Below are positions 7,581-33,270 of a stretch of 64,000 nucleotides of DNA, piece by piece. A program made the position numbers and the translations under genes. Numbering within the stretch: position 1 is the stretch's first letter; the number at the start of each line of letters is the position of its first letter. A model generated the notes under the pieces. That model saw nothing but the letters and a program-made list of their open reading frames with translations, did not search any database and was not told the DNA's origin. Source of the stretch: Allobosea sp. 47.2.35 (GTDB taxonomy: Bacteria; Pseudomonadota; Alphaproteobacteria; Rhizobiales; Beijerinckiaceae); assembly GCF_024655635.1 (NCBI RefSeq), contig NZ_JANLGI010000006.1, forward strand, positions 1 through 64,000, read 5' to 3'.

Positions 7581-8231
7581 GTGAGCAAGGGACGTTTCAT
7601 CACCCTCGAAGGCGGGGAGGGCGCCGGCAAGTCGACGCTGGCGCGCGCGCTGAGCGAGCGGCTCATTGCGGCTGGCCTCACGGCGCGGACGACGCGTGAG
7701 CCCGGGGGCTCGCCGAAAGCCGAAGCCATCCGCGAGATGATCCTGGCCGGGCAGGCGCGCGATTACGGCCCCTTCGCCGAGGCGCTGATGTTCTCGGCCG
7801 CGCGGATCGACCATATCGACAGCCTGATCCGCCCGGCTCTGGAGCGCGGCGAATGGGTGATCTGCGACCGCTTCATCGATTCGACGCGGGTCTATCAGGG
7901 CGTGCTGGGCCAACTCGACAAGGCCGTGCTGGCCGAGCTTGAAGCCGTGACGATCTCCGGCCTGATGCCGGACTTGACGCTGATTCTCGATCTCGATCCC
8001 GAGATCGGCCTCGCCCGCGCCGCCAAGCGCCGCCGCCCCGGCGAGGCAATCGACCGTTTCGAAGGCGAGACGCTGGCCTTCCATCGCAATCTGCGCCAAG
8101 CCTACCAGGATATCGCGAGCGCCGAACCGCAGCGCTGCGCCGTGCTCGATGCGACATTGCCTCCCGAGGCGCTCGCGGAGGCGGCGTGGCATATCCTGCG
8201 CGAGCGCCTGCCAATCGATCCGGACACCTGA
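7581..8231 (+). CDS. tmk: thymidylate kinase
   Basis: 216 residues, normal length. It phosphorylates dTMP to dTDP in the cytoplasm. P-loop GGEGAGKST lies at about residues 10-18, the DR(F) dTMP-binding motif in CDRFIDSTRVYQG near 95, and the lid region in AAKRRRPGEAIDRFE near 150. The start is GTG, just after the carboxypeptidase stop. Its stop overlaps the holB start (TGATG), the usual tmk-holB coupling in Proteobacteria. Confidence 0.97.
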   Translation: MSKGRFITLEGGEGAGKSTLARALSERLIAAGLTARTTREPGGSPKAEAIREMILAGQARDYGPFAEALMFSAARIDHIDSLIRPALERGEWVICDRFIDSTRVYQGVLGQLDKAVLAELEAVTISGLMPDLTLILDLDPEIGLARAAKRRRPGEAIDRFEGETLAFHRNLRQAYQDIASAEPQRCAVLDATLPPEALAEAAWHILRERLPIDPDT

Positions 8232-9322: not shown

Positions 9323-10882
9323 ATGGCCACGGCCCCGAAATTCTATCTGACGACCGCGATCCACTACACCAACGGGCCGCCGCATATCGGCCACGCCTAC
9401 GAGATGGTGGCGGCGGACGCGATCGCGCGCTTCAAGCGGCTCGACGGCTACGACGTCTTCGCCATGACCGGCACCGACGAGCACGGCCAGAAGGTCCAGC
9501 GCACCGCGGCGCAGAACGGCCTCTCGCCGAAGGAATTCGTCGACAAGATCGCGGCGCGCTTCGAGGAGATGGAGCAGCGCCTCGGCTGCTCCTTCGACCG
9601 CTTCATCCGCACCACCGATGCCGACCACAAGGTCTCGACCGACGAACTATGGCGACGGATGGAAGCCAATGGAGACATCTATCTCGCCAAATATGCCGGC
9701 TGGTACTCGGTGCGCGACGAAGCGTTCTACGGCGAGGAGGAGACCACCCTCCAGCCCGACGGCACGCGCCTGGGCGGGCAGGGCACTCCGGTCGAATGGG
9801 TCGAGGAGGAGAGCTATTTCTTCCGCCTCAAGTCCTATCAGGACCGCCTCCTGAAGCTCTATGAGGACGTACCGGACTTCATCTCGCCGGAGACCCGCAA
9901 GAACGAGGTCGTTTCCTTCGTGAAGGGCGGGCTCGAGGACCTCTCGATCAGCCGCACGACCTTCGATTGGGGCCTGCCCGTGCCCGGCGACCCGAAGCAC
10001 GTCATGTATGTCTGGGTCGACGCGCTCAACAACTATGTCACCGGGACGGGCTTCCCCGATCCGGCGAGCCCGCGCGCGCATTACTGGCCGGCCGATGTCC
10101 ATATCATCGGCAAGGACATCGTGCGCTTCCACGCGGTCTACTGGCCGGCTTTCCTGATGTCGGCGGGGCTGCCGTTGCCGAAGCGCGTCTTCGGCCACGG
10201 CTTCCTGCTGAACAAGGGCACGAAGATGTCGAAGTCGCTCGGCAACGTGGTCGATCCCTTCGGCCTCGCCGAGACCTATGGCGTCGACCAGCTGCGCTAT
10301 TTCTTCCTGCGCGAGGTCTCCTTCGGCCAGGACGGCAATTACAGCCACGACGCCATCGTCGGGCGCATCAATGCCGACCTCGCCAATGATCTCGGCAATC
10401 TCGCGCAGCGCTCGCTGTCGATGATCGCCAAGAACTGCGAGGGCAGGGTGCCGCCGCGCGGGGCGCTCAACGAGGCCGACGAAGCCATGCTCGCCATGGC
10501 CGATGCGGCGCTCGCCAGGGCGCGCGAGGCGATGAAGGATTTCGCCCTTCACACCGTGCTCGCCGATCTCTGGGCTCTCATTGCCGAGGCGAACCGCTAT
10601 TTCGCCAATAACGAGCCCTGGCGCCTGACCAAGACCGACCCGAGCCGCCGTGACACCATCCTCTATGTCACGATCGAGGTGCTGCGCGAGGTCGCGATCC
10701 TGGTGCAGCCGGTGATGCCGGTGGCCGCGGGCAGGCTGCTCGACCTGCTCGGCGTCGCGCCCGAGGCCCGCAGCTTCGCGGCACTCGGTGCGGAGCATCG
10801 GCTCGTCAGCGGTGCGGCCCTGCCGGCGCCGAGCGCGATCTTCCCGCGCTATGTCGAACCCGAGGACGACCAGGCGGCGTGA
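9323..10882 (+). CDS. metG: methionyl-tRNA synthetase
   Basis: 519 residues, class I aminoacyl-tRNA synthetase charging tRNA-Met. HIGH is exact ([11 protein letters not shown], about residue 20) and the KMSKS loop is exact ([12 protein letters not shown], about 305). An alpha-helical anticodon-binding domain fills 360-519. The short form lacks the C-terminal EMAP/Trbp111-like dimerisation domain of E. coli MetG. Its stop overlaps the next start (TGATG). It lies in the conserved tmk-holB-metG-tatD string. Confidence 0.97.
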
Positions 10883-11682
10883 TGGTCATCGATACGCATT
10901 GCCATCTCGACTTCCCGGATTTCGCCGAGGACCTGCCGGCCTATATTGCGCGCGCCGAGGAAGCCGGCGTCGGCCGGATGGTGACGATCTCGACGCGGGT
11001 AGCGCGCTACGCCGACTATGCCGCGCTGGCGGAGCGCTTTCCGTCGGTCTGGTTCTCGGTCGGCACGCATCCGCATAACGCCCATGAGGAGCTCGACGTC
11101 ACGGCCGAGCGCCTCGTGGAGCTGTCGCGCCATCCGCGCTGCGTCGCCATCGGCGAGGCCGGGCTCGACTATCACTACGATTCGAGCCCGCGCGCCGCGC
11201 AAGCCCAGGGGTTGCGCACGCATATCGCCGCGGCGCGGATCACGCAGCTGCCGCTCGTCATCCATTCGCGCGAAGCCGATGACGACATGATCGTGATCCT
11301 GCGCGAGGAGATGGGGAAGGGCGCCTTCCCCGCCATCCTGCACTGCTTCACGGCCGGAGAAGCGCTGGCCATGGCCGGTGTCGAGCTCGGGCTCTACGTT
11401 TCCTTCTCGGGCATCCTGACCTTCAAGACCTCTGAGAACCTGCGCCGGATCGCCCGGATGGTCCCGCGCGAGCGCCTCCTGGTCGAGACCGATGCACCCT
11501 ATCTGGCTCCCGTGCCGTTCCGGGGCAAGCGCAACCAACCGGCCTATGTCGTTGAAACCGCGAAGGTTCTTGGCGAAACGATCGGCGTGCCTTTCGATGA
11601 GATCGCAAGGATCACCACCGAGAATGCGCGGCGCTGCTACTGGAAGATGGACCACGCCGCGCCGGTCGCGCAGGTAGCCTGA
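10882..11682 (+). CDS. TatD-family metal-dependent deoxyribonuclease (YcfH-like)
   Basis: 266 residues. The start is the ATG inside the TGATG junction with metG; a GTG three bases upstream is also in frame. It is a TIM-barrel metallohydrolase with DTHCHLD at the N-terminus (two His metal ligands), the conserved IGEAGLDYHY (about residue 94), HSREA (about 131), HCFT (about 155) and the terminal ETDAPYLAP (about 206). Family members are 3'-5' nucleases acting on DNA or D-aminoacyl-tRNA; the in vivo substrate cannot be read from the sequence. Confidence 0.93.
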   Translation: MVIDTHCHLDFPDFAEDLPAYIARAEEAGVGRMVTISTRVARYADYAALAERFPSVWFSVGTHPHNAHEELDVTAERLVELSRHPRCVAIGEAGLDYHYDSSPRAAQAQGLRTHIAAARITQLPLVIHSREADDDMIVILREEMGKGAFPAILHCFTAGEALAMAGVELGLYVSFSGILTFKTSENLRRIARMVPRERLLVETDAPYLAPVPFRGKRNQPAYVVETAKVLGETIGVPFDEIARITTENARRCYWKMDHAAPVAQVA

Positions 11683-11691: not shown

Positions 11692-12495
11692 ATGACGCTT
11701 ACCGTCACCATTCTCGGCTGTGGATCATCCGGCGGCGTGCCGCGCCCGGGCTCCGGCTGGGGCGCCTGCGATCCCAGCGAGCCGAAGAACCGGCGCCGCC
11801 GCTGCTCGATCCTCGTCGAGCGCATCGGCCCGGAAGGCATGACGCGTGTCCTCGTCGATACCTCGCCGGACCTGCGCGAGCAACTTCTCTCGGCCGAAGT
11901 GCCGGCGCTCGACGGTGTCCTGCTGACGCATGACCATGCCGACCACACCCATGGCATCGACGACCTGCGAGCGCTCGTCCTGCACATGCAGCGGCGCATC
12001 CGCATCTACGCCGACAAGGCGACCGAGGCGTCACTGCGCTCGCGCTTCAGCTATCTCTTCGAGACGCCGCAAGGCAGCTACTATCCGCCGATCCTCGATC
12101 TCGACCAGATCTCGGCCGGCCGGCCGCACACGATCGACGGCGCCGGCGGGCCGATCACGGCCTTGCCGTTCCGGGTCGAGCACGGGCCGAACTACGAGGC
12201 GCTGGGCTTCCGCTTCGGCGATCTCGGCTACCTGCCGGATGTCAGCCTGATCCCGCCGGCCGCCATGGAGGCCATGGCCGATCTCGACGTGCTGATCCTC
12301 GATTGCCTGCGCGAGACGCCGCATGTCAGCCATTTCCATCTGGCGCAGTCGCTGGAAGCGATCGCGCACCTGAAGCCACGCCGCGCCATCCTGACCAACC
12401 TCCATGTCGATCTGGATTATGCCAGCCTGAGCAAACGCTTGGCTGGCATTGCCGAAGTGGCGTACGACGGGATGACGATCTCGGTTCCGGTCTGA
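11692..12495 (+). CDS. MBL-fold metallohydrolase, PhnP-like phosphodiesterase
   Basis: 267 residues. The metallo-beta-lactamase signature HDHADH (about residue 81) supplies the dinuclear metal site. The N-terminal LGCGSSGGVPRPG and a CD-x-x-EPKNRRRR segment are typical of PhnP-like cyclic phosphodiesterases. Further ligands probably include the His of FRVEHGPN, the Asp of YLPDVS and the C-terminal HFHL. It ends the housekeeping operon that begins with rlpA or the carboxypeptidase gene. No phn genes are nearby, so a role in phosphonate metabolism is not implied. Confidence 0.88.
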   Translation: MTLTVTILGCGSSGGVPRPGSGWGACDPSEPKNRRRRCSILVERIGPEGMTRVLVDTSPDLREQLLSAEVPALDGVLLTHDHADHTHGIDDLRALVLHMQRRIRIYADKATEASLRSRFSYLFETPQGSYYPPILDLDQISAGRPHTIDGAGGPITALPFRVEHGPNYEALGFRFGDLGYLPDVSLIPPAAMEAMADLDVLILDCLRETPHVSHFHLAQSLEAIAHLKPRRAILTNLHVDLDYASLSKRLAGIAEVAYDGMTISVPV

Positions 12496-12530
12496 ACACC
12501 CAGTATTTCAGGCAGCGCCCGCATCGAAAT

Positions 12531-12558
12531 AAGTTCCATAATATACCTTATGCGAATC
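12531..12558 (-). other. dif: candidate chromosome dimer resolution site dif (XerCD site)
   Basis: Read on the minus strand, a 28-bp sequence has an 11-bp arm GATTCGCATAA, a 6-bp centre GGTATA and an 11-bp arm TTATGGAACTT. By my count 21 of 28 positions match E. coli dif, including the inner CGCATAA, the GTATA of the centre and TTATG. It lies in a non-coding gap between convergent genes, as dif sites usually do. KOPS-like octamers (GGGNAGGG) switch strand around it: + strand at 7614, 9776 and 10441, and minus strand from 18271 onward. Confidence 0.8.
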
Positions 12559-12691
12559 ATAGATGGGCGAGTTTCAGCCTCTCCCTGCTCGCTCAATCCG
12601 ACGCTGATAGCAAAGCCGGCAATCGCTCTGCAGCGACCGCCGGCCTCATCGTCTGTCCAATCTCCGGCAGCCGGTCAGCCCCGGCGCCCCC

Positions 12692-14044
12692 TCACGGCTT
12701 GTTCGGATCGAAATGCTTGGTCAGCTTGTGGCCGTAGCCGCCATAGTCGCGCTGGAGCGCATCCGAGCCGGCGGCGAAGGCCGTGACCTGCTGCGGGAAG
12801 CGCGTCTCGAACATGAAGGCCAGCGTGCCCTCCAGCTTATGCGGCTTCAATTCGACATTGCTCGCCTTCTCGAAGGCATCCATGTCCGGCCCATGCGGCA
12901 GCATGGTGTTGTGCAGCGAGATGCCGCCCGGCACGAAGCCGCCGCCGGTCTTGGCGTCATAGACGCCGTAGACCAGCCCCATGAACTCGCTCATCACGTT
13001 CATATGGTACCAGGGCGGCCGGAAGGTGTTCTCGGCCACCAGCCAGCGATCCGAGAAGATGACGAAGTCGATATTGGCGGTGCCGGGCGTCTCCGAGGGC
13101 GAAGTCAGCACCGTGAAGATCGACGGATCGGCGTGGTCGTAGAGGATCGGCCCGACCGGTGAAAAGCGCCTGAGATCATATTTGTACGGGGCATAGTTGC
13201 CATGCCAGGCGACGACGTCGAGCGGCGAATGCTCGATATCCGCGGCCCAGAGATTGCCGCCCCATTTCACATACATCTTCGACGGCGCGTCGCGGTCCTC
13301 GAAGGCTGCGACCGGCGTCAGGAAATCGCGCGGATTCGCGAGGCAGTTGGCGCCGATCGGCCCGCGCTCCGGCAAGGTGAAGGCGCCGCCATAGTTCTCG
13401 CAGATATAGCCCCTCGCCGGCCCGTCCCTGAGCTCGACGCGGATCTTCACGCCACGCGGGATCACGGCGATCTCGCCCGGCTCGATATCGATGATGCCGA
13501 ACTCCGTCCAGAGCCTGAGATCACCCTGCTGCGGCACGAACAGCATCTCGCCATCGGCATTGTAGAAATACTCGTCCACCATCGAGCGGGTGATCAGGTA
13601 GACATGCGCGCCCATGCCGCCCTGGCTGCCGGCATCGCCGGCAGTGGTCATGCTGCGGATGCCCTCGACGAAGGAGATCGGTTCCGACGGAATCGGGATC
13701 GGGCTCCAGCGCAGCGGCGCGATCGGCATGTCGACCTCGCGGGCCGGCGCGGTGCGCCAGAACCCGGCATCGACCTTCCGGAATTCGTTCCAATGCGCCA
13801 CCGTTGGCCGGATGCGATAGAGCCAGGAGCGCTCGTTGGTGGTGCGCGGCGCGGTGAAGGGCGAGCCCGAGAGCTGCTCGGCATAGAGCCCATAGGCGCA
13901 TTTTTGCGGCGAGTTGCGCCCGAGCGGCAGGGCGCCCGGCAGCGCCTCGGTCTCGAAACCGTTGCCGAAGCCTGACATGTAGCCCGTCGCGATGGCACTC
14001 TCGGCCTTGGCGGCACCGGCATGGGCCGGGTTCTGAACGTTCAT
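12692..14044 (-). CDS. hmgA: homogentisate 1,2-dioxygenase
   Basis: 450 residues, full length for the family. It opens the ring of homogentisate to maleylacetoacetate using Fe(II). The iron-site region is intact: a His in [18 protein letters not shown] (with the Glu ligand in SEFMG) and the second His in MLPHGPD. The N-terminal [19 protein letters not shown] is the family hallmark. It is divergent from marR, with 106 bases between the starts, and its sister gene fahA follows marR. This is a tyrosine/phenylalanine breakdown enzyme. The 3' end faces the candidate dif site. Confidence 0.97.
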
Positions 14045-14680: not shown

Positions 14681-16045
14681 ATGCAGGGCAGCACTCTCGA
14701 CGCGCGGGCTGAAAACCCGCCTCGCCCCACCTCCTCCGCTGTCGCGCTCGACGCCAGCCACGATCCGGCGCTGCGCAGCTGGGTCGCATCGGCGCGGGAC
14801 CATGCGGAATTCCCGATCCAGAACCTGCCCTTCGGCGCGTTCTCGCCCGAAGGCGAGCCGGCACGTGGCGGTGTGGCCATCGGCGACGAAATCCTCGATC
14901 TGGCGGCGCTCGCCGCGTCCGGTCTTTGCGCCGATATCGAGGAGATCGTCGCAGCGGCAGCCGCGCCGAGCTTGAACGGCTTTCTCGGATTGGGAACGGG
15001 TGCGCGCAGGCAACTGCGGGCGCGGCTTTCGGCCCTGCTGGCGGAAGGCTCGCCTGCGCAGACCGCGCTGAAGCCGATGCTGCATCCGGCGCGGAAATGC
15101 GTGCTCGGCCTGCCCGCCCGGATCGGCGACTACACCGATTTCTATGCCGGCATCCAGCACGCCCTGAATATCGGCTCGCTGCTGCGGCCGGACAATCCGC
15201 TGCTGCCGAACTACAAGCATATCCCGATCGGCTATAACGGCCGCGCCTCGTCGGTCAGGCCCTCCGGCGAGCCCTTCCTGCGCCCCAATGGCCAGCGCAA
15301 ACGTCTGGACGAAGCAGAGCCCAGCTTCGGCCCTTGCCGCAATCTCGACTACGAGCTGGAACTGGGCATCTGGATCGGCCCGGGCAACGCGCAAGGCTCG
15401 CCGGTGCCGATCGACGAGGCCGACGACCGGATCGCCGGGTTCTGCCTGCTCAACGACTGGTCGGCGCGCGATATCCAGGCCTGGGAATACCAGCCGCTCG
15501 GCCCCTTCCTGTCCAAGGGCTTTGCCACGACAATCTCGCCCTGGATCGTCACGCCGGAGGCGCTGGCGCCCTTCCGGAAGACTCAGGCGCCACGGCCGGA
15601 AGGCGATCCGGCGGCCCTGCCCTATCTCAGCCCAAGTGACGCCACCGCCTCCCATGCGCTCGACATCACGATGGAGGTCTTCATTGAGACCGCTTCCATG
15701 CGCGCGAACGGCCTGGCGCCGCACCGGCTCTCGCTCGGCAGCACACGCGACCTTTATTGGACGCCGGCCCAGTTCGTCGCCCATCACAGCTCGAACGGCT
15801 GCAATCTCGAACCGGGCGATCTCTTCGGCTCCGGCACGATCTCGGGGCGCGATCCCGGCTCCTTCGGCAGCCTGATGGAGATCACGCGCGGCGGCCGCGA
15901 GCCGATCGCGCTGCCCAATGGCGAGAGCCGGACCTATCTCGTCGATGGCGACGTCATCGTCATGAAGGCCAGCGCCCGGCGGGAGGGTTTCGCCTCGATC
16001 GGCTTCGGCGAATGCCGGGCCGAAGTGCTGCCGGCGCGCGGCTGA
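14681..16045 (+). CDS. fahA: fumarylacetoacetase
   Basis: 454 residues from ATG 14681. It hydrolyses fumarylacetoacetate to fumarate and acetoacetate, the last step of tyrosine degradation. Family landmarks are NLPFGAFS near residue 46, the metal-site region DYTDFYAGIQHALNIG (Asp and the catalytic His) near 148, PIGYNGRASSV, ELELGIWIG (Glu ligands), LLNDWSARDIQAWEYQPLGPFLSKGFATTISPW (acidic ligand and catalytic Lys), and a C-terminal GSGTISG. The only other homogentisate-pathway step, the isomerase, is probably encoded 10 kb downstream. Confidence 0.96.
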   Translation: MQGSTLDARAENPPRPTSSAVALDASHDPALRSWVASARDHAEFPIQNLPFGAFSPEGEPARGGVAIGDEILDLAALAASGLCADIEEIVAAAAAPSLNGFLGLGTGARRQLRARLSALLAEGSPAQTALKPMLHPARKCVLGLPARIGDYTDFYAGIQHALNIGSLLRPDNPLLPNYKHIPIGYNGRASSVRPSGEPFLRPNGQRKRLDEAEPSFGPCRNLDYELELGIWIGPGNAQGSPVPIDEADDRIAGFCLLNDWSARDIQAWEYQPLGPFLSKGFATTISPWIVTPEALAPFRKTQAPRPEGDPAALPYLSPSDATASHALDITMEVFIETASMRANGLAPHRLSLGSTRDLYWTPAQFVAHHSSNGCNLEPGDLFGSGTISGRDPGSFGSLMEITRGGREPIALPNGESRTYLVDGDVIVMKASARREGFASIGFGECRAEVLPARG

Positions 16046-18247: not shown

Positions 18248-18273
18248 GGGCGGCGGCCCTGGCGCCGCCGCCC
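18248..18273 (+). promoter_or_regulatory. GC-rich intercistronic hairpin after the binding-protein gene
   Basis: A perfect 10-bp stem (GGGCGGCGGC at 18248-18257, GCCGCCGCCC at 18264-18273) with a 6-nt loop, not followed by a T tract. It lies between the binding-protein and permease genes. Hairpins here commonly protect the upstream mRNA end, so that binding protein is made in excess over membrane subunits. Confidence 0.6.
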
Positions 18274-18300
18274 TTCCCTGACCTGAGCATCGGGCCGGAT

Positions 18301-19203
18301 ATGGACCTGCAACTCGCGCTGATCTTCCTGCAGCAAGGCATCGCCTCGGGCCTCGTCTCGGGCAGCGTCTATGCCCTGCTGGCGCTCGCCATCGTGGTGA
18401 TCTTCAAGACCTCGGATGTGCCGAACTTCGCCCAGGGCGAGGTCTTCATGGCGGCGGGCTATGTCGCGCTCTATCTCTTCGTCTTCCAGAAGATGCCGAT
18501 CTGGGTCGTGCTGCCGGCGACGCTGGTCGTCGCCTTCCTCGCCATGGCGCTGTTCCGCCGCTTCGTGCTCGATCAGGTCGCTAAGTCCGCGAAGGACCTC
18601 GTCTATTTGGTCATCGCGACGCTCGGCCTGTCCTATGTGCTGAAGGGCCTCGTCCGCCGCACCGGCTTCGGCGACACGCCGCGCTCCTTCCCGGCGCTGG
18701 TGCCGACCGATTCCATCATGATCGGCCAGGCCTCGGTGACGATGCTCGATCTCGCCATCTTCGGAACCGCCGTCACCGTGATGGCCGCCTTCTTCTGGAT
18801 GTTCAACTACACCAAGACCGGCCGGGCCATGCGCGCCGTCGGCATGAACCCCAAGGCCGCTCAGCTCGTCGGCGTCGACCTGCGCCGCTGCCATATGCTG
18901 ATCTGGGGCCTCTCCGGCGTGATCTCGGCCATCGCCGCCCTGCTGATCTCGCCGAAGATCCTGATGACCGCCGATATGGGCTCGATCGTCATGCTCGCCT
19001 TCGCTGCGGCGATCGTCGGCGGCTTCTCCAGCCTGCCCGGTGCTGTGGTCGGCGGCTTCGTCATCGGCATCGTCGAGAACATGGTCGGGCTGTTCATCTC
19101 GTCGCGCGCCATCGTGCTCGCCCCCTTCCTCGCCATCCTGATCGTGCTCGTCCTGCGTCCGCAGGGCCTGTTCGGCGGGAAGCTGACGATCAAGAAGGTC
19201 TGA
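18301..19203 (+). CDS. branched-chain-type ABC permease (LivH-like)
   Basis: 300 residues with about eight hydrophobic segments. It has the LivH N-terminus LQQGIASGLVSGSVYALLALA, the early motif FKTSDVPNFAQGEVFMAAGY, and the C-terminal AAAIVGGFSSLPGAVVGGF, which contacts the ATPases. It forms the inner-membrane channel with the next gene product. It follows the binding-protein gene by 92 bases, with a hairpin in the gap. Confidence 0.93.
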   Translation: MDLQLALIFLQQGIASGLVSGSVYALLALAIVVIFKTSDVPNFAQGEVFMAAGYVALYLFVFQKMPIWVVLPATLVVAFLAMALFRRFVLDQVAKSAKDLVYLVIATLGLSYVLKGLVRRTGFGDTPRSFPALVPTDSIMIGQASVTMLDLAIFGTAVTVMAAFFWMFNYTKTGRAMRAVGMNPKAAQLVGVDLRRCHMLIWGLSGVISAIAALLISPKILMTADMGSIVMLAFAAAIVGGFSSLPGAVVGGFVIGIVENMVGLFISSRAIVLAPFLAILIVLVLRPQGLFGGKLTIKKV

Positions 19204-19209
19204 AGCCCC

Positions 19210-20193
19210 GTGTCGTCACCTCCTCTCGCATCGCCCGCGCCGGCCAGGCGCGCGCTCTCAGGCCCCGCCCTGATCGGGCTTGTGGCGGCCGTGATCGTGG
19301 CCGTTGCCCTGCCCGTCTTCACCTCGGGCTATGTCGTCTACATCGCCAACCTGCTGCTGGTCTTCGTGGTGCTCTGCCTCGGCCTGCACATCGTCATCGG
19401 CGAAACCGGCCAGTTCTCGATGGCCCATGCCGCCTTCTACGGCATCGGCATCTATGCCAGCGCGCTCGCCAACCGCGCGGTCGACCTGCCCTACCCCGTC
19501 GCCATGCTATTCGGTGCGCTGGTCGCCGGCGCCGTCGGCCTATTCATCGGCGCGCTCGCGCTCAGGATGCGCGACATCTATCTGGCGCTCGCCACCTTCG
19601 CCTTCGGCGAGGCGATGCAATGGGTCTTCGCCAACTGGGACAGCGTCACCAACGGCCCGAACGGCCTGCGCATCAGCCCGGCCCGCTTCGGCCCGATCGA
19701 GATCCTCAGCGACAAGCAGGCCTACCCCTTCGTGCTGTTCTTCTGCCTGGTGATAATCGGGCTCACCGTCGCGATCTCGCGCTCGCGTCTCGGCCGCTCC
19801 TTCCGGGCGGTGCGCGAGTCGGAGGTCGCCGCGATGGCGATGGGCATCGACGTGCGCCGCGCCCGGATCGTCTCCTTCGGCCTCTCGGCCGCGATCGCGG
19901 GTTTTGCCGGAGGCATGTTCGGCCTGTTTCAGACCTTCATCCACCCGGATAGCCTGGGCTTCCAGACCACGATCCTCGTGCTCACCATGGTCGTGGTCGG
20001 CGGGCTCGGCTCGATCGCGGGCGCCATCGGCGGGGCGATCGTGTTCGGGCTGATCTCGGAGGTGCTCCGCCAGGCGCCGCAATACCAGGAGATCATCTAC
20101 GGCGCGATCCTGATCCTGTTCATGATGTACGCGCCGCGCGGTCTCTTCGCCTTCATCGGCGATCGCATCCGGGAGGCGCGCCATGGCCGCTGA
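19210..20193 (+). CDS. branched-chain-type ABC permease (LivM-like)
   Basis: 327 residues, GTG start six bases after the preceding stop. It is highly hydrophobic, with GLHIVIGETGQFSMAHAAFYGIG (the LivM equivalent of GxxGQxSLGH) and a C-terminal VVVGGLGSIAGAIGGA coupling segment. It pairs with the LivH-like permease. Its 3' end overlaps the ATPase gene by 11 bases, indicating tight co-translation. Confidence 0.93.
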   Translation: MSSPPLASPAPARRALSGPALIGLVAAVIVAVALPVFTSGYVVYIANLLLVFVVLCLGLHIVIGETGQFSMAHAAFYGIGIYASALANRAVDLPYPVAMLFGALVAGAVGLFIGALALRMRDIYLALATFAFGEAMQWVFANWDSVTNGPNGLRISPARFGPIEILSDKQAYPFVLFFCLVIIGLTVAISRSRLGRSFRAVRESEVAAMAMGIDVRRARIVSFGLSAAIAGFAGGMFGLFQTFIHPDSLGFQTTILVLTMVVVGGLGSIAGAIGGAIVFGLISEVLRQAPQYQEIIYGAILILFMMYAPRGLFAFIGDRIREARHGR

Positions 20194-20971
20194 GAGCGCT
20201 CCCTTCCTCAATGTCGAGGGGCTGACCATCCGCTTCGGCGGACTCACCGCGGTCGGTGGGCTCGACATGGCCGTCGCCAAGGGCTCGATCCATGCGCTGA
20301 TCGGCCCGAACGGCGCCGGCAAGTCGACGACCTTCAACTGCATCTCGCGCTTCTATACGCCGAGCGCCGGGCGCATCACCTATGACGGGCGCGACATCAC
20401 CCGCATGCCAGCCCGCGAGATGGCGGGTCTCGGCATCGCCCGCAGCTTCCAGAACCTCGAACTCTTCGGCGAGCTCACCGTCTTCGAGAACGTGCTGATC
20501 GGCGCTCATGTCCATGCCGGCCGCTCCTGGCGCGACGCGATCAGCGCGCGTCCGCGCGGCATCGCCGAGCATGTCGATGAGTTGCTGGAGCGCACGGGCC
20601 TGACCTCCTACGCCCAGACCAAGGCGCGCAACCTCGATTTCGGCCACCAGAAGATGGTCGAGATCGCCCGCGCGCTCGCGATCCGCCCCAAGCTCCTGCT
20701 GCTCGACGAACCGGCCGCCGGCCTGCGCAACCGCGAGATCGCGGCGCTCGACCGCCTGCTCTGCGAATTGCGCGAGCGCGACGGCATCACGATCCTGCTG
20801 GTCGAGCATGTCATGCAACTGGTCATGTCTATCTCGGACAAGATCACGGTGCTGAGCTTCGGCACCAAGATCGCCGAGGGCACGGCCGCCGAGGTGCGCG
20901 CGCATCCCGCCGTGATCGAAGCCTATCTCGGCCGCGACGCGGCGACCGCCGGGGAGGCGAACCATGGCTGA
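20183..20971 (+). CDS. ABC transporter ATPase (LivG-like)
   Basis: 262 residues. Walker A is GPNGAGKST (about 42), Walker B LLLLDEPAAGL (about 170) and the H-loop is in LLVEHVMQLV. The signature motif reads LDFGHQKMVEIARAL, the usual LivG departure from LSGGQ (normally LSYGQQ). It overlaps livM-like upstream (11 bases) and the second ATPase downstream (8 bases). It powers uptake as a heterodimer with the next product. Confidence 0.94.
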   Translation: MAAESAPFLNVEGLTIRFGGLTAVGGLDMAVAKGSIHALIGPNGAGKSTTFNCISRFYTPSAGRITYDGRDITRMPAREMAGLGIARSFQNLELFGELTVFENVLIGAHVHAGRSWRDAISARPRGIAEHVDELLERTGLTSYAQTKARNLDFGHQKMVEIARALAIRPKLLLLDEPAAGLRNREIAALDRLLCELRERDGITILLVEHVMQLVMSISDKITVLSFGTKIAEGTAAEVRAHPAVIEAYLGRDAATAGEANHG

Positions 20972-21677
20972 CCTCCTCGAAATCGACGGCATCTCCGCCT
21001 CCTATGGCCGCATCCAGGCGCTGTCCGAGGTCTCGCTCAAGGTGCCGGAAGGGGCGATCGTCGCCCTGCTCGGCTCGAACGGCGCCGGCAAGAGCACGAC
21101 GCTGAACACCGTCTCGCGGCTCGTGCCGGTGACGAAGGGGCGCATCCGCTTCGCCGGCGAGGAGATCCAGTCCTGGGCCTCGCACAAGGTCGTCTCGGCC
21201 GGCGTGCTGCAGGTGCCGGAAGGCCGCGAGGTCTTCCGCGACATGAGCGTGCGCGAGAACCTCGACATGGGCGCCTATCGCCGCAGCGACGCTGCCGGCA
21301 TCAAGCGCGATCTCGACCGGGTCTTCGAATATTTCCCGAAGCTTCAGGAGCGTCTGCAGCAGAAGGCCGGCACGCTCTCCGGTGGCGAGCAGCAGATGCT
21401 GTTGATCGGCCGGGCGCTGATGGCCGGCCCGCGCCTGCTCCTGCTCGACGAGCCCTCGCTCGGGCTCTCGCCGGTGCTGGTGCAGCAGATCTTCGCGATC
21501 ATCGAGCGGCTGAACAAGGACGGGCTCACCATCCTGCTGGTCGAGCAGAACGCGGCAATCGCGCTGGGCTGCTCGACCTATGCCTACATCCTCGAGAACG
21601 GCGAGATGGCCCTCGAAGGGGCATCCGCACAACTGCGGCAGGACGACAGCGTCCGCCGCACCTATCTCGGCGGCTGA
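20964..21677 (+). CDS. ABC transporter ATPase (LivF-like)
   Basis: 237 residues. Walker A is GSNGAGKST (about 36), the signature LSGGEQQMLLIGRAL (about 137), Walker B LLLLDEPSLGL and the H-loop VEQNAAIAL, where Gln-Asn replaces His as is normal for LivF. It completes the five-gene importer. The next gene, an SDR, begins 31 bases later on the same strand, suggesting one long transcript. Confidence 0.94.
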   Translation: MADLLEIDGISASYGRIQALSEVSLKVPEGAIVALLGSNGAGKSTTLNTVSRLVPVTKGRIRFAGEEIQSWASHKVVSAGVLQVPEGREVFRDMSVRENLDMGAYRRSDAAGIKRDLDRVFEYFPKLQERLQQKAGTLSGGEQQMLLIGRALMAGPRLLLLDEPSLGLSPVLVQQIFAIIERLNKDGLTILLVEQNAAIALGCSTYAYILENGEMALEGASAQLRQDDSVRRTYLGG

Positions 21678-21708
21678 GCCGGGACGCGACACAAACAGGA
21701 ACCGGCTC

Positions 21709-22452
21709 ATGGCTACGCCGCAGGACAAACCCATCGCTCTCGTCACGGGCGGCGCACGCGGGATCGGCCGGGCCATCGTCGAGCGGCTCTGCGCCGACGG
21801 CTTTGCGGTCGGCATCCTCGACCGCGAGGCGGAGATCGCGGCCGCGCTGGTGAAGGAGCTTGAGGCGCAGGGCCACAGCGTCTTCTTCGAGCCGGTCGAC
21901 CTTGCCGATCATGCCGGCCTCGCCGCGCTGGCAGAGCGGCTGCCGGTGGCGCAGGCGCTGATCAACAATGCCGGCATCTTCGAGAACAAGCCGTTCTTCG
22001 ATCTCGCGGCGAGCGATTTCGGCCGGATGATGGATGTCAACGTCACCGCGCTCTTCCTGCTCTCGCAGGCCGTGGCGCGGCGGATGGAAAAGGGCGGGCG
22101 CATCGTCAACATCGCCTCGCGGACCTTCCTGGGCGCCCGGAACCACGCCCACTACGTCGCCTCGAAGGCCGCCGTCGTCGGCCTGACGCGGGCGATGGCG
22201 ATGGAGCTTCTGCCGCGCGGCATCGCCGTCAACGCGGTGGCGCCGGGCGGGGTCGCGACCGAGATGGTGGCGAAGCAGTCCGAGGAGGCGCGCGCCGCCC
22301 TGCTCGCCCAGCAGCCGACGGGAGCGCTCGCGGCGCCCGAGGACATCGCCAACGCCGTCGCTTTCCTCGCCTCGCCGCGCACCAATTTCATCTACGGCCA
22401 GGTCCTGCTCGTCGACGGCGGCAAGTCGCTCGGCGGTGGCATGGGCGGCTGA
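21709..22452 (+). CDS. short-chain dehydrogenase/reductase, first of three
   Basis: 247 residues from ATG 21709 (AGGA at 21697-21700 as ribosome site). A Rossmann fold with cofactor loop TGGARGIGRA (about 15), NNAGI (about 86) and the catalytic Ser-Tyr-Lys in NIASRTF and HYVASK (about 138 and 150). ILDRE after the second strand suggests NAD rather than NADP. It follows the importer and precedes a flavoprotein, so it probably oxidises a hydroxyl in the imported compound. Substrate unknown. Similar proteins are often labelled FabG-like, but this is not the biosynthetic fabG context. Confidence 0.88.
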   Translation: MATPQDKPIALVTGGARGIGRAIVERLCADGFAVGILDREAEIAAALVKELEAQGHSVFFEPVDLADHAGLAALAERLPVAQALINNAGIFENKPFFDLAASDFGRMMDVNVTALFLLSQAVARRMEKGGRIVNIASRTFLGARNHAHYVASKAAVVGLTRAMAMELLPRGIAVNAVAPGGVATEMVAKQSEEARAALLAQQPTGALAAPEDIANAVAFLASPRTNFIYGQVLLVDGGKSLGGGMGG

Positions 22453-22462
22453 GGACATGGCG

Positions 22463-24160
22463 ATGAGCGAGAGCTTCGACGAAATCCGCGACGTCGTCGT
22501 GATCGGCTCCGGCGCCGGCGGTATGTCGGCGGCGATCACCGCCGCCAAGGCCGGGCTCGACGTGCTGCTGATCGAGAAGAGCGAGTATATCGGCGGGAGC
22601 ACCGCCGTCTCGGGCGGCGCCATGTGGGTGCCGGAGAACCCGCATGCCGCCAAGGCCGGCCATGCCGATACCCGCGAAGCGGCGATGACCTATCTCGAGG
22701 CCGTGCTCGGCAACCGCCTGCGGCCGGACCTGATGCGTGCCTTCCTCGATAACGGCCCGGAGATGGTCCGCTTCTTCGAACGCGAGACGGCGCTGAAATT
22801 CGAGGCGCGGGCCTATTCGCCGGACTACCAGCCCGAGCAGCCCGGCGCCTCCAAGGGCGGACGGACGATCGATCCCGCGCCCTATGACGGCAACGAACTC
22901 GGCGCCGATTTCGCCCTGCTGCGCCCGCCGCTGAAGGAATTCACCGTGCTTGGCGGCATGATGGTGAACCGCAAGGATATCGACGCGCTGGTCGGCCGCT
23001 TCCGCAACTTGGCGAACTTCAAGCATAGCGCGAAGCTGCTGATCCAGTACGGGCTCGACCGCCTGCGCCATCCGCGCGGCGCGCGCCTGCTGATGGGCAA
23101 TGCGCTTGCGGGACGCCTGCTGAAATCGGCGCGGCAGGCGGGCGTCGACATCCGCACGCAGACGCCGGCCGGCTCGCTAGCCCTCAAGGACGGCTCTGTC
23201 ATCGGCCTCACCGTCAAGGGCCCACAAGGCGAGCGCCGCATCGGCGCGCGGCGCGGCGTCGTGCTGGCGAGCGGCGGCTTCCCGGCCAATGCCGCGATGC
23301 GCGGCGAGCACATGCCGCATGCGGATGTGCATCGCTCGATGGCGCCGAAGACCGATACCGGTGACGGCATCAAGCTAGGTCTCAAAGCCGGCGGCGCCCT
23401 GCGCGACGACAATATCGGCGCGGCCTTCTGGACACCGGTCTCGGTGCTGAAAAAGCCGGATGGCAGCGAGGTGCAGTTCCCGCACCTGATCCTCGACCGG
23501 GCCAAGCCCGGACTGATCGCGATCGACGGCCAGGGCCGACGCTTCGTCAACGAGGCGACCTCCTATCACGGCTTCGTCGAGGCGATGCATGCGAGCGGCG
23601 CCGTACCCGCCTTCCTCGTCTGCGACAGCGATTTCCTGCGCAAGTACGGGCTCGGCCTCGTCCATCCCGGCCTGAAGACCCCCAAAACCTTCGTCGAAGC
23701 CGGCTATCTGTTCGAGGGCGAGAGCGTCGCGGCGCTGGCCGGACGCATCGGCGTCCCGGCCGCGGCGCTGGCGGAGGCGGTCGCCGGCATGAATACTGCG
23801 GCGCGCTCCGGCGCGGATGCGGCCTTCGGCAAGGGCTCCAGCGAGTATAACCGCTATCTCGGCGACCCCAACCACAAGCCCAATGCCTGCCTCGGGCCGA
23901 TCGAGACCGCGCCCTTCTATGCCGTGAAGGTCTGGCCCGGCGATATCGGCACCGCGACCGGCCTGACCTGCGACCCGCAGGCGCGCGTGCTCGGCCGCGA
24001 CGAGAAGCCCGTTGGCGGGCTCTATGCCTGCGGCAACGACATGAACTCGATCATGGCCGGCGCCTATCCCGGCGCCGGCATCACGCTCGGCCCCGCGCTC
24101 ACCTTCGGCTTCATCGCCGGGCGGGCGCTCGCCGCCGAGCCCGACCGCTTGCCGCGCTGA
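22463..24160 (+). CDS. FAD-dependent dehydrogenase, 3-ketosteroid dehydrogenase/fumarate reductase flavoprotein family
   Basis: 565 residues from ATG 22463, chosen over ATG 22457 because GAGG at 22451-22454 is then correctly spaced. The N-terminal FAD fold has VVVIGSGAGGMSAA and the GGSTAVSGGAMWVP loop. The C-terminus carries GGLYACGNDMNSIM and AGAYPGAGITLGPALTFGFIAGR, the signature shared by KstD and flavocytochrome fumarate reductases. No heme-binding CxxCH and no signal peptide, so it is cytoplasmic. Relatives desaturate ring ketones or reduce activated double bonds. With three SDRs beside it, a 1,2-dehydrogenation of a cyclic ketone is a reasonable guess, not a demonstration. Confidence 0.87.
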   Translation: MSESFDEIRDVVVIGSGAGGMSAAITAAKAGLDVLLIEKSEYIGGSTAVSGGAMWVPENPHAAKAGHADTREAAMTYLEAVLGNRLRPDLMRAFLDNGPEMVRFFERETALKFEARAYSPDYQPEQPGASKGGRTIDPAPYDGNELGADFALLRPPLKEFTVLGGMMVNRKDIDALVGRFRNLANFKHSAKLLIQYGLDRLRHPRGARLLMGNALAGRLLKSARQAGVDIRTQTPAGSLALKDGSVIGLTVKGPQGERRIGARRGVVLASGGFPANAAMRGEHMPHADVHRSMAPKTDTGDGIKLGLKAGGALRDDNIGAAFWTPVSVLKKPDGSEVQFPHLILDRAKPGLIAIDGQGRRFVNEATSYHGFVEAMHASGAVPAFLVCDSDFLRKYGLGLVHPGLKTPKTFVEAGYLFEGESVAALAGRIGVPAAALAEAVAGMNTAARSGADAAFGKGSSEYNRYLGDPNHKPNACLGPIETAPFYAVKVWPGDIGTATGLTCDPQARVLGRDEKPVGGLYACGNDMNSIMAGAYPGAGITLGPALTFGFIAGRALAAEPDRLPR

Positions 24161-24173
24161 GAAAGGCACTCCG

Positions 24174-24794
24174 ATGAAGCTCTACCAGTCCGCCACCTCG
24201 CCCTTCGTGCTCAAGGTCCGGATCGCCGCCGCCGAGCTCGGCCTCCTCGACCGGATCGAGATGCTCGACGTCTCGCAGGAGTACAAAGCTGGCGGGCCGC
24301 TGGCGCGCGAGCAGAACATCATCAAGACCAATCCGCTGGGACAGGTGCCGACCCTGCTGCTCGAAGACGGCTCGACGATCGCCGACAGCCGCGTCATCTG
24401 CGAATATCTCGACGGGCTCGGCGGCGGCTCGCTGTTTCCCGCAGAGCCCAAGGCGCGCTGGAACGCCCTGACCGAGCAAAGCTATGGCGACGGCCTGCTC
24501 GATGCGGCGCTGGCAGCGCGCTACGAGGGGCTGCTGCGCAGCGAGGAACAGCGCTGGCAGCGTTGGATCGACGGCCAGCTCGCCAAGGTCCATGCCACGC
24601 TCGACCTGATCGAGGGCAAGGCCGCCGGCTTCGGCGAGCGCGTCGATATCGGCACGATCACCTTCTATTGCGCGCTGGCCTATCTCGACCTGCGCTTCGC
24701 CGACCTGAACTGGCGCGAAGGCCGGCCGCATGCTGCCGCCTGGTTCGCCAAAATCGCCGAACGTCCGGCCTTCGGCGGCCAGAAACTGGGCTGA
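24174..24794 (+). CDS. glutathione S-transferase family protein
   Basis: 206 residues. The N-terminal thioredoxin fold (about 1-80) has a start LYQSATSPFVLKVRIAAAELG, where a Ser or Thr near residue 7-9 would activate glutathione, the cis-Pro segment LGQVPTLLLEDG (about 58) and the gamma-glutamyl contact ADSRVICEYLD. An all-helical C-terminal domain follows. It lies 13 bases after the flavoprotein gene and before a second SDR. Possible roles are thiol addition or thiol-dependent isomerisation of a pathway intermediate, or detoxification. Confidence 0.87.
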   Translation: MKLYQSATSPFVLKVRIAAAELGLLDRIEMLDVSQEYKAGGPLAREQNIIKTNPLGQVPTLLLEDGSTIADSRVICEYLDGLGGGSLFPAEPKARWNALTEQSYGDGLLDAALAARYEGLLRSEEQRWQRWIDGQLAKVHATLDLIEGKAAGFGERVDIGTITFYCALAYLDLRFADLNWREGRPHAAAWFAKIAERPAFGGQKLG

Positions 24795-24817
24795 GGCCGG
24801 AACGGCAGGAGGCGGCG

Positions 24818-25648
24818 ATGGGTGCGAATCTCGGGCTTGCCGGCCGGACCGTCCTGATCACCGGCGGCGCTTCCGGCATCGGGCGGGAATGCGCGCTGGC
24901 GCTGGCGCGCGAAGGCGCCGCCGTCGCCATTGCCGACGCGAATGAGCAGGGCGCGACCGAGACCGTCTGCGAGATCGCGGCGCTCGGCGCCCGCGCCGTC
25001 GTGGCGAGCTTCGATGTGCGCAGCCCGACAGCGACCGAAACCGCAATCGAGGCGATCGAGCGCGATCTCGGCCTGCTGGACGGGTTGATCACCGCCGCCG
25101 GCATCTCCCGCCCTGCCCCGGCGACCGAACTCGCCGCCGAAAGCTGGGAAGCGGTGATCGGCGTCAATCTCTCCGGTACTTTCTATTCCTGCCAGGCGGC
25201 CGGCCGGCGCATGGTCGCGCGCGGGCGCGGCGCCATCGTCACGATCGGCTCGGTCTCCTCGCTCGGCGGCCAGTCCGGCCGCGCGCATTACTGCGCCTCG
25301 AAGGCCGGCGTCGTCGGGCTGACGCGCGACCTCGCGGTCGAATGGGGCTCGCATGGCGTGCGCGTGAACTGCATCGGCCCGAGCGCGACCGATACCCCGA
25401 TGATCCGCCGCGGCATTCCCGAAAGCTTCGTCTCCGGCGTGATGGAGGACCGCACGCCGCTCGGGCGCCTGGCCCAGCCTTCCGAGGTCGCCTCCGTCTG
25501 CCTGTTCCTGCTCTCGGACCTCGCGAGTTACGTCAACGGCGCGCTCATCATGGCCGATGGCGGCGTCTCGGCCGGCTTCTTCACGCGCGGCCATGGCCGC
25601 GATTTCTCGTCCAAGGCCCTGCTCGCGCAGGGCATCTACAGCGAATGA
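24818..25648 (+). CDS. short-chain dehydrogenase/reductase, second of three
   Basis: 276 residues from ATG 24818, preceded by AGGAGG. The cofactor loop is TGGASGIGRE (about 15), the Asp-type NAD preference is in IADANE, and the catalytic residues are Ser in TIGSVSS, Tyr and Lys in HYCASK. A C-terminal extension after MADGGVSAGFF (FTRGHGRDFSSKALLAQGIYSE region) is longer than in classical SDRs. It lies in the same run as the importer, flavoprotein and GST. Substrate unknown. Confidence 0.88.
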   Translation: MGANLGLAGRTVLITGGASGIGRECALALAREGAAVAIADANEQGATETVCEIAALGARAVVASFDVRSPTATETAIEAIERDLGLLDGLITAAGISRPAPATELAAESWEAVIGVNLSGTFYSCQAAGRRMVARGRGAIVTIGSVSSLGGQSGRAHYCASKAGVVGLTRDLAVEWGSHGVRVNCIGPSATDTPMIRRGIPESFVSGVMEDRTPLGRLAQPSEVASVCLFLLSDLASYVNGALIMADGGVSAGFFTRGHGRDFSSKALLAQGIYSE

Positions 25649-25661
25649 ACCGGAGACCGAC

Positions 25662-26432
25662 ATGAGCAAGCTCGCCCTCGTCACCGGCGCCGGCCGCGGC
25701 ATCGGCGCGGCCATCGCCCATAAGCTCGCGGCCGATGGCTGGCGGGTCGCCGTCTGCGACCTGACGAAGGAGCCGGCGGCAGCGGTCGCGGCGGCCCTTC
25801 CCGGCTCCGGCCATAGCGGCTGGGCGGTCGATGTCTCCGACGAGTCTTCGGTCGAAGCGCTGTTCGATGAGGTCGAGGCCGCTCACGGCCCTGTCACCGG
25901 GCTGGTCTGCAATGCCGGCGTGCTCCTGATGGCGGCCGATGGCGAGCGGCCGACCATTTTCGACATGACGCTCGACGACTGGGAGAAAACCCATGCCGTG
26001 AACACGCGCGGCGTCTTCCTGAGCATCCGTGCCTATGCGCGCAGGCGCCGGGCACTGCCGGTCGAAGGCGGGCGCGTCACCACCACCAGCTCGGTCGCAG
26101 CGGAGCTTGGCGGCTATCGCGGCTCCGCCAGCTATATCTCGTCGAAATCGGCGATCCTCGGCTTCACCAAGGCGATGGCGCGCGAACTCTCGTCGCTCGG
26201 CATCACCGTGAACTGCGTCGCGCCGGGCGTGATCGACGCGCCGATGCTCGCCGCGGCAACGCCGCGCTCGGCCGCGCCGAGCTCGATGGATGCGCTGGCG
26301 CAGGCGGTGCCGCTCGGCCGGCTCGGCACGCCGGAGGATATCGCCGGGGCCGTGTCTTTCCTGCTCTCCGAGCAGGCCTCCTACGTCACCGGCGCGACGA
26401 TCGACGTCAATGGCGGCTACCGCATGGCCTGA
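25662..26432 (+). CDS. short-chain dehydrogenase/reductase, third of three
   Basis: 256 residues. The cofactor loop is TGAGRGIGAA (about 9), NAGV (about 84), with catalytic Ser in TTSSVAAE and Tyr-Lys in SYISSK. It has an insertion around residues 85-100 (LLMAADGERPTIFDM) relative to the neighbours, so it is not a simple duplicate of them. It starts 13 bases after the second SDR and ends 14 bases before the isomerase-like GST, indicating an operon. Substrate unknown. Confidence 0.87.
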   Translation: MSKLALVTGAGRGIGAAIAHKLAADGWRVAVCDLTKEPAAAVAAALPGSGHSGWAVDVSDESSVEALFDEVEAAHGPVTGLVCNAGVLLMAADGERPTIFDMTLDDWEKTHAVNTRGVFLSIRAYARRRRALPVEGGRVTTTSSVAAELGGYRGSASYISSKSAILGFTKAMARELSSLGITVNCVAPGVIDAPMLAAATPRSAAPSSMDALAQAVPLGRLGTPEDIAGAVSFLLSEQASYVTGATIDVNGGYRMA

Positions 26433-26446
26433 CTGGGGAGACCGAC

Positions 26447-27079
26447 ATGATCCTGCACGGCTATTTCCGCTCCTCGGCCGCCTGGCGCACGCGCATCGCC
26501 TTTAATCTCAAGGACGTGACGCCGCAGAGCGTGATCCACAACCTGCGCGACGGCGCCCAGAACGAGCCGGCCTATGCCGCGATCAATCAGCAGAAGCTGA
26601 TCCCGGCGCTGGAGCTCGATGACGGCACCGTGTTGACCCAATCGCTCGCGATTATCGGCTGGCTTGATCGCGAGATGCCGCAGCCGCCGCTCTTTCCGGC
26701 TGACAATGCGCTACGCGCCCGCGTCGAGGCCTTCGCGCTGGTGATCGCCTGCGAGACCCATCCCTTCCAGAATCCGAAGATACAGAAGCGCCTGCGCGGC
26801 AAGGGCTTTTCGGAAGCGGATGTGCAGGACTGGCTCGCCGCCGCGATGAGCGAGGGCCTGAGCGCCTGCGAACAACTGATCCAGGACCAGCCCGGCCCGT
26901 TCTGCTTCGGGGATGCGCCGACCTTGGCCGATATCTGCCTCGTGCCGCAGATCGGCAGCGCGAGGCGCTACGGGATCGACCTTTCGCCCTATCCGAAGCT
27001 CGTCGCGATCGACGCGCATTGCGCCACCCTGCCCGCCTTCATCGCGGCAAGGCCCGACCAGCAGCCGGACGCGGTCTGA
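26447..27079 (+). CDS. maiA: maleylacetoacetate isomerase-like GST (zeta class)
   Basis: 210 residues. The zeta-class N-terminus reads GYFRSSAAWRTRIAFNLK; the first Ser of the usual SSCSWR motif is kept and the Cys position is Ala, as in many bacterial isomerases. NQQKLIPALELDDG (cis-Pro) and TQSLAIIGWLD follow, with the helical domain to the end. The reaction would be glutathione-dependent cis-trans isomerisation of maleylacetoacetate or maleylpyruvate. hmgA and fahA in this window leave exactly this step open, so it may serve homogentisate breakdown even though it ends the unknown catabolic operon. It is convergent with the LuxR-type gene. Confidence 0.82.
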   Translation: MILHGYFRSSAAWRTRIAFNLKDVTPQSVIHNLRDGAQNEPAYAAINQQKLIPALELDDGTVLTQSLAIIGWLDREMPQPPLFPADNALRARVEAFALVIACETHPFQNPKIQKRLRGKGFSEADVQDWLAAAMSEGLSACEQLIQDQPGPFCFGDAPTLADICLVPQIGSARRYGIDLSPYPKLVAIDAHCATLPAFIAARPDQQPDAV

Positions 27080-27085
27080 GCCGGC

Positions 27086-27868
27086 TCACATCAGGATGCG
27101 CATCAGCTCGTTCTGCGAGGAGATGCCGAGCCGCGCATAGGCGCGCTTGCGATAGGTCAGCACGGTATTGATGCCGACGCCGAGTTCGAGCGCGATGCCC
27201 TCGGAGGTCAGGCCGGCGGCGACGAGCGCGCAGACGTCCCGCTCGCGCTTCGAGAGTTCCGGCGCGGCCTTTTCCAACCGGGCGTGGAAATCCCGCGCGG
27301 CGCCACGACCACCTGCCGGCTTCGTCACCTCGTAATGCCGCCAGAGCGCCGCCATCAGCAGCGGCGCACTCTCGACCAGATTGTCGATTTCCGACTCGCT
27401 GAAGCTCTCCTTGCGGCGGCGATAGATGCTGAGCCGCATCGTGCCGGCCTCGCGGCGCTGCAGCAGCGAGAAGCGCTCCGACAAGCCGACCGAGAGATAG
27501 CACTCGCTGCGATAGGCCGAGCTTTCGATATCGCCGGCCTTCATCCGCACGCCCCAGCAATCCGCCTCGTCACCATCGTCGAGCGGGATCGCGTTGGCCG
27601 GATCGGCGCGCCAGTGCCGAGAGACGTAGCGGCGGGCAATCTCGAGCGCCGGCTGCCCGGAATTGTAGTGGTTCTCAGCCAGGAGCGTATGCACCTCGCC
27701 ATCGGGGGCGGCGACGAAGGCGGTGACGATCTCGGTGCCGGTGAAGCGCCGGGCAATATCGAATAGACCGCTCGAAAAATCGGAGCGGCCGACGCTTTCG
27801 ATCACACGCGGCATGGTCGCCAGGATACTGCGCGCGGCTACGGCCTGCTGGATGGCCACAAGCTGCAT
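27086..27868 (-). CDS. LuxR-family transcriptional regulator
   Basis: 260 residues. The C-terminal LuxR helix-turn-helix (about 195-255) has LSKRERDVCALVAAGLTSEGIA, IALELGVGINTVLTYRKRAY and LGISSQNEL. The N-terminal 180 residues form an uncharacterised sensory region without a phosphoacceptor receiver domain. No luxI-type synthase lies in the window. GGGAGG lies just upstream of the start on the minus strand. It is convergent with the catabolic operon and may regulate it or the flanking clusters; a metabolite-sensing role is a guess. Confidence 0.87.
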   Translation of the reverse strand: MQLVAIQQAVAARSILATMPRVIESVGRSDFSSGLFDIARRFTGTEIVTAFVAAPDGEVHTLLAENHYNSGQPALEIARRYVSRHWRADPANAIPLDDGDEADCWGVRMKAGDIESSAYRSECYLSVGLSERFSLLQRREAGTMRLSIYRRRKESFSESEIDNLVESAPLLMAALWRHYEVTKPAGGRGAARDFHARLEKAAPELSKRERDVCALVAAGLTSEGIALELGVGINTVLTYRKRAYARLGISSQNELMRILM

Positions 27869-27948
27869 TCAAACCTCCCGCCGGCCCCTCTTTCGGTCCG
27901 GCTTGCAGCCGGCGGCGGAGGCCGTTTCAGGCCTACAGCGTTAACAGT

Positions 27949-27976
27949 ATCCAACTTCGCATGCAAACTTTTGGAT
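27949..27976. promoter_or_regulatory. inverted repeat upstream of the LuxR-type gene
   Basis: ATCCAA at 27949-27954 and TTGGAT at 27971-27976, a 16-bp spacer, about 80 bases upstream of the regulator start. The arms are short and could occur by chance; a binding site for the regulator is possible. Confidence 0.25.
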
Positions 27977-28005
27977 GAGGGCGAGACCGGGTGTCGTGGC
28001 CGTTG

Positions 28006-28698: not shown

Positions 28699-28771
28699 AT
28701 CGCTCAAAACCCCTCGCACGTTCCTGTCAGGAAGCAAGGCTGCCCGCAAGCCTACGCTCACGGCCACACAA

Positions 28772-28803
28772 ATCAACTGATGATCGATGAATTATCAGTT
28801 GAT
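28772..28803. promoter_or_regulatory. perfect 10-bp inverted repeat, probable GntR operator
   Basis: ATCAACTGAT at 28772-28781 and ATCAGTTGAT at 28794-28803 are exact reverse complements separated by 12 bp. They lie between the divergent GntR and aroQ starts, 74 bases from the former and 76 from the latter. Symmetry, AT-richness in a GC-rich genome and location all favour a regulator binding site. Confidence 0.65.
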
Positions 28804-28878
28804 CTCTCGTTCATCTTGTATCACGTTCCGCTCACAAGCTACGAGCGAGGCCGGCAGAGCTTCGCCTGGGAGGGTGTC

Positions 28879-29346: not shown

Positions 29347-29381
29347 CGGCGGTGCCCTCGCCTGCCCGCCCCCGCGAAGCC

Positions 29382-30047: not shown

Positions 30048-30107
30048 GCTTCACCCGCGAGAAAACCAGCCCGGAAACTAGGGCGAACGCATCAAAATGG
30101 ACAAGTC

Positions 30108-30146: not shown

Positions 30147-30153
30147 TAACATG

Positions 30154-30939: not shown

Positions 30940-30946
30940 GGGCGCG

Positions 30947-32496: not shown

Positions 32497-33270
<774 letters not shown>

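Follow-up and report, generated by a model that had tools for sequence, protein, structure and literature searches.

The dif site is the place where joined double chromosomes separate before cell division. In the accessible text of the respective reports, the FtsK orienting sequence (KOPS) described for alphaproteobacteria is GGGNAGGG (PMC2443382), dif and the skew turn of B. japonicum are separated by 102,766 bases (PMC2731167), and IS1202-family elements are found 5 bp from XerC arms (PMC10132070). The stretch of DNA analysed here (the window, 64,000 nucleotides) contains a 28-mer made of two 11-bp arms and a 6-bp centre, which is the layout of dif, and resembling known dif sites. The site and its surroundings are as follows.

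12531..12558, minus strand: dif, 28 bp, GATTCGCATAA GGTATA TTATGGAACTT (evidence: sequence, single copy, conservation, comparison with known dif sites)
12548..12558, minus strand: putative XerC-side arm, GATTCGCATAA, by homology to E. coli dif
12542..12547, minus strand: central hexamer GGTATA, from sequence
12531..12541, minus strand: putative XerD-side arm, TTATGGAACTT, by homology to E. coli dif
12496..12691, strandless: intergenic gap of 196 bp holding dif, with convergent genes on either side
11692..12495, plus strand: left neighbour, MBL-fold metallohydrolase gene (below every NCBIfam cut-off)
12692..14044, minus strand: right neighbour, hmgA, homogentisate 1,2-dioxygenase (668.9 bits, cut-off 510.75)

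An earlier, sequence-only reading had given this 28-mer letter for letter, on the same strand, with an exact 11-6-11 layout around GGTATA, and had placed it in a short gap between convergent genes, as confirmed by the stops of the MBL-fold gene at 12495 and of hmgA at 12692. Its count of 21 of 28 positions shared with E. coli K-12 dif, both inner arm halves included, was also reproduced; the E. coli site differs in the outer part of the XerD arm (GAACTT, as against TTAAAT in the window), in the centre (TGTATA rather than GGTATA) and at bases two and four of the XerC arm. Three published Rhizobiales dif sites match the window site at 24 to 26 of 28 positions, as far as these are given in the accessible text (PMC2731167): that of B. 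japonicum USDA 110 at 26, with the GGTATA centre included and differences at two of the last three XerD-side bases; that of the A. tumefaciens C58 circular chromosome at 25, with an identical XerD arm (TTATGGAACTT) and differences in the centre (GATATA) and at XerC-arm bases one and three; and that of M. loti at 24.

At up to three mismatches the 28-mer matched one place in the 67-contig, 5,214,549-base draft genome (control pattern, 0), in agreement with the claim that it is unique per chromosome; no second copy was present in these 67 contigs (5.21 Mb), a draft in which a further copy could sit in an assembly gap. The next best score against E. coli dif was 17 of 28 in 364 kb of the same genome (both strands, 727,136 positions), and no match turned up in any of 100 shuffled versions of the window. 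Both results, together with conservation of the site across genus and order (see below), argue against a chance dif match in intergenic DNA, an explanation for which no supporting evidence was found and whose probability is negligible. The shorter core CGCATAA-N6-TTATG, at up to two mismatches, occurs at chance level in the whole genome (70 matches, 71 for the control), and among the matches listed only the one at dif is free of mismatches; a better dif match elsewhere in the genome, which the sequence-only reading had named as evidence that would count against it, was accordingly absent from those listed.

Comparison with related genomes, proposed in the same reading, bore it out. A 24-mer from the site was matched at up to three mismatches in 36 of the 37 genus genomes, the own one counted (G030 was the only one with no match at this threshold), and in 49 of 61 genomes of genus and order combined. 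Of 297 order genomes, 255 contain CGCATAA-N6-TTATGGAA exactly and 42 have no exact match; the reversed control occurs in one. In a genus alignment of 30 sites (our own and one each from 29 of the 35 other matching genomes, with L004 and L027 being extra rather than main sites, and with several genomes sharing the gene neighbourhood of the window, so that rows are partly non-independent), conservation is strong across the 28-mer and drops to background beyond it; the exceptions are isolated positions, -9 for example, and, on the XerD side, a weak A/T-rich tail. The idea that conservation continues beyond the XerD arm (~10 bases partly kept in the 30 genus sites) was considered and rejected, as the extension is mostly absent at order level (alignment of 30 sites from the 255 matching genomes, three families). 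When the site with the usual centre is taken as the main site of each genome, main-site centres in the genus are GACATA (26 genomes), GGTATA (9) and GCTATA (1).

KOPS were located in 364 kb of the own genome, consisting of bases 1 to 244,000 of contig C64, which includes the window, and 120,000 bases of C9 (123,668 in total), which was set to the left of C64 by synteny with the relative G012, leaving a gap of unspecified size between the contigs. In this sample 31 KOPS are in forward and one in reverse orientation to the left of dif, with four forward and 64 reverse to the right (Fisher p 2.4e-20). The best single switch point falls within 11314-15615, an interval that contains the site, and is consistent with 95 of 100 KOPS. 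When no motif was chosen beforehand, GGGCAGGG was the most polarised of the 5167 octamers occurring at least 20 times. KOPS in the window are arranged as follows.

7614..7621, plus strand: KOPS GGGGAGGG, toward dif
9776..9783, plus strand: KOPS GGGCAGGG, toward dif
10441..10448, plus strand: KOPS GGGCAGGG, toward dif
11314..11321, plus strand: last forward KOPS ahead of dif, GGGAAGGG
15615..15622, minus strand: first reverse KOPS past dif, GGGCAGGG on the minus strand
18271..58109, minus strand: a further 13 KOPS among those listed up to 60 kb, all toward dif

Single copy, conserved core and the flip of KOPS polarity within this interval support the dif interpretation, and the 28-mer is very probably an ordinary chromosomal dif site. 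A Xer site carried by a mobile element or plasmid (pdif, or an attachment site exploiting XerCD) is very improbable: eight of the 36 matching genus genomes (G008, G012, G015, G023, G029, G031, G033 and G036) do hold ten extra sites whose arms are identical or almost identical, but a mobile origin is contradicted by the polarity flip around the 28-mer over 364 kb, and also disfavoured by the named neighbours (metG, tatD, the MBL-fold gene and hmgA), which recur around dif of G012, and by the chance-level frequency of other short-core matches in the own genome. Neither a plasmid location nor adjoining mobile genes were found at the 28-mer among the nearest neighbours examined.

KOPS polarity around dif is similar in relatives. 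In G012, 51 forward and four reverse KOPS lie left of dif, with two forward and 33 reverse to the right (350 kb), and the flip falls within 1768034-1772347, with dif at 1771112. Within 10 kb of dif, G014 has five forward and no reverse KOPS on the left and none forward and five reverse on the right; the corresponding numbers for G010 are six and one, with a reverse KOPS 2.4 kb left of dif, and none and three. In 20-kb samples from across the G014 chromosome, the KOPS directed toward dif number 35 of 39 on one arm and 31 of 38 on the other, with the arms assumed to split near dnaA and samples beside dnaA or containing dif excluded. With the dif sample and four others near dnaA excluded, the left arm of G010 (2.46-4.39 Mb) has 31 of 35 KOPS pointing toward dif; the right arm (4.91 Mb to 1.11 Mb) is noisy, with 30 of 44 sampled KOPS doing so. 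Polarity reverts farther out in G012 (about 1.95 to 3.5 Mb), which suggests a large inversion or misassembly; given this inconsistency, G012 was rejected as a whole-chromosome standard and only the region near its dif was used.

The sequence-only reading had also suggested a turn of cumulative GC skew as a check, which here does not decide the matter, and had stated that the window appears to contain the replication terminus, which is borne out only in part. The window alone has no clear GC-skew turn at dif. Over C9 and C64 the skew is weak (left arm, +0.010; right arm, -0.019), with the cumulative maximum at joined coordinate -32,422 on C9, left of dif and outside the window. This is ~49 kb from dif, or 0.9% of the genome (45 kb plus the 3.7-kb end of C9 outside the sample, to which the inter-contig gap of unspecified size would be added). 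The turn in T-A skew, at joined coordinate -7425, is closer, ~24 kb from dif when the C9 end is counted. GC skew was discarded as the main test, being too weak in the own genome and in sampled relatives; it is KOPS polarity that flips at the site instead, and this flip bears on dif more directly than GC skew. As to the terminus, dif and the convergence of KOPS do lie in the window, where forks may also finish. A true dif with forks usually meeting elsewhere, and hence a physical terminus outside the window, is a serious alternative, if somewhat short of an even chance. The distant GC-skew maximum on C9 is in its favour, as is the existence of replicons in which dif lies apart from the coverage minimum, noted in the accessible text of PMC13342612; on the other hand, weak skew makes for an imprecise turning point, and the T-A turn is closer to dif. 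Such an arrangement is compatible with identification of the 28-mer as dif and limits only the title of the earlier reading.

Candidate Xer recombinases are encoded on three contigs of the own genome. For the C3 recombinase the best NCBIfam model is XerC (306.5 bits, under the equivalog cut-off of 335.15), while the C67 recombinase is better fitted by XerD (320.2 bits, under the cut-off of 329.6) than by XerC (267) and also passes PRK00283.1, a general model for tyrosine recombinases. The third, at the end of C37, is partial (142.6 bits as XerD). The XerD equivalog cut-off was reached in none of five genus genomes. ftsK, with alpha and motor domains, is truncated by the end of C7 (G000:C7:133515-134013), and a search of the own draft assembly, in which the gene is cut by this contig end, detected no gamma domain; the gamma domain is present in all four relatives searched (G009, G010, G012 and G014). 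A literature search that left most subscription journals outside its reach returned nothing on dif or XerD in Bosea.

In nine of the ten extra genus sites the central hexamer is unlike that of the genome's main site, the exception being in G031. Multiple sites were identified in 16 of 297 order genomes, with mutually different centres in all ten genomes for which sites were listed. Centre divergence among the sites of one genome is not new, since divergent centres on non-homologous chromosomes have been described and proposed to prevent fusion (PMC2533119, accessible text). The second dif-like site of G012 (G012:C1:4495870-4495893; three mismatches, centre GGTTTG) is in a stretch of 60.7% GC about half a chromosome from dif in this one-contig genome, and perhaps represents an integrated element. 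Loci L177 and L180 have dif-like sites with different centres and a similar left flank, which suggests the end of a mobile element beside the XerC arm. ISNCY-type (IS1202-like) transposase genes lie beside dif in L076 (678-2000, site at 2066) and beside a dif-like site in L078 (8514-9473, site at 9708), a placement that agrees with IS1202-family targeting as set out in the accessible text of PMC10132070. The left flanks of L029 and L004, grouped with these two loci, have similar sequence adjoining the site.

A different transposase, of the IS30 family (260.4 bits, cut-off 80), is found next to each of two dif-like sites whose flanks are otherwise unrelated.

L074, 3950-4960: IS30-family transposase, site at 5044
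L079, 8949-9959: IS30-family transposase, site at 10044

The dif in the window is unoccupied by this element. Homologues in order genomes amounted to seven matches in five of 397 genomes; four of these matches (L208, L209, L211 and L214) have a dif-like site (up to two mismatches in the 16 core positions) 5′ of the transposase gene; no such site was found 5′ of L210 and L213, both with stops, or L212, at a contig end, and the L209 transposase carries a stop too. A scan of genome contigs from 512 relatives, for which the query was an alignment of four IS30 members, all of them copies near dif-like sites, retained at least 79 loci (L215-L293). Of these listed loci, 69 were assessable, with >180 bases upstream of the transposase start, and 51 of the 69, among the matches listed, have a dif-like site (up to three mismatches in 15 core positions) within 250 bases upstream. 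Copies with sites are mostly in rhizobia. The transposase is on the XerC side and in the same orientation in all 51 of these listed copies, and the gap between start codon and dif core is 84-86 bases in 44, 79-83 in six and 186 in one. Elsewhere in 337 kb of the same IS30 loci there are eight such matches, and 250-base windows downstream of the IS30 genes of these listed loci contain no dif-like site. Among the 51 listed sites there are 47 different right flanks and 38 different centres, although at least one site repeats the first sighting (L215 has the same length as G015:C64, the contig of L079). The upstream test found no site for 18 of the 69 assessable listed copies; four of these (L229, L242, L250 and L255) have a site 1.2 to 1.9 kb farther out, and L286 and L292, siteless by the same test, have one with four mismatches.

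The column profile has uneven conservation to about -10, followed by weakly kept bases to the XerC arm at -4, whereas L074 and L079 diverge already 17 bases before the core, and the distance between the XerC arm and the end of the IS30 element can therefore be given only as a range, 5 to 13 bp. The best terminal inverted repeats pair at 18 of 25 positions in L074 and L079 and at 17 of 25 in L208; candidates for L209, L211 and L214 were rejected (best pairs 15 to 18 of 25, at unconvincing positions). A tblastn search with the transposase (E up to 1e-60) gave matches in 552 of 72,556 plasmid records, with identity below 60% in 405, and copies are present in plasmid NZ_CP134778.1 of Bosea sp. 685 and in contig C1 of G033. 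The dif and dif-like sites of this order probably serve a group of IS30-family elements as specific landing pads as well, the scan having covered one IS30 lineage. If insertion is targeted, recognition of Xer sites, or of proteins bound there, would have arisen in a second IS family in addition to the IS1202 family already published, and a group at fixed spacing would make recognition of Xer sites by unrelated transposases testable. No literature on an IS30 group beside dif or Xer sites was found in a search that did not extend to most subscription journals. The IS30 association is more novel than the dif site itself and deserves its own study.

For the window site, XerC and XerD would be expected, by analogy with the known system, to bind, to be activated by FtsK and to resolve dimers. 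An odd number of crossovers between sister chromosomes would produce a chromosome dimer, and septal FtsK, reading KOPS octamers, would pump the DNA of both arms toward dif. There it would activate XerD and then XerC, which would introduce a single further crossover between the paired 28-mer copies, converting the dimer into two monomers. KOPS polarity narrows dif to ~4 kb in a high-GC alphaproteobacterium with nearly flat GC skew, fixes the FtsK convergence point of the genome and allows nearby draft contigs to be oriented. Among the closest published counterparts is the KOPS map of Azorhizobium caulinodans, which covers the whole genome, while ours covers 364 kb around dif and samples of three relatives; in that alphaproteobacterium (67% GC), according to the accessible text of PMC2443382, GGGNAGGG likewise points to a terminal dif.
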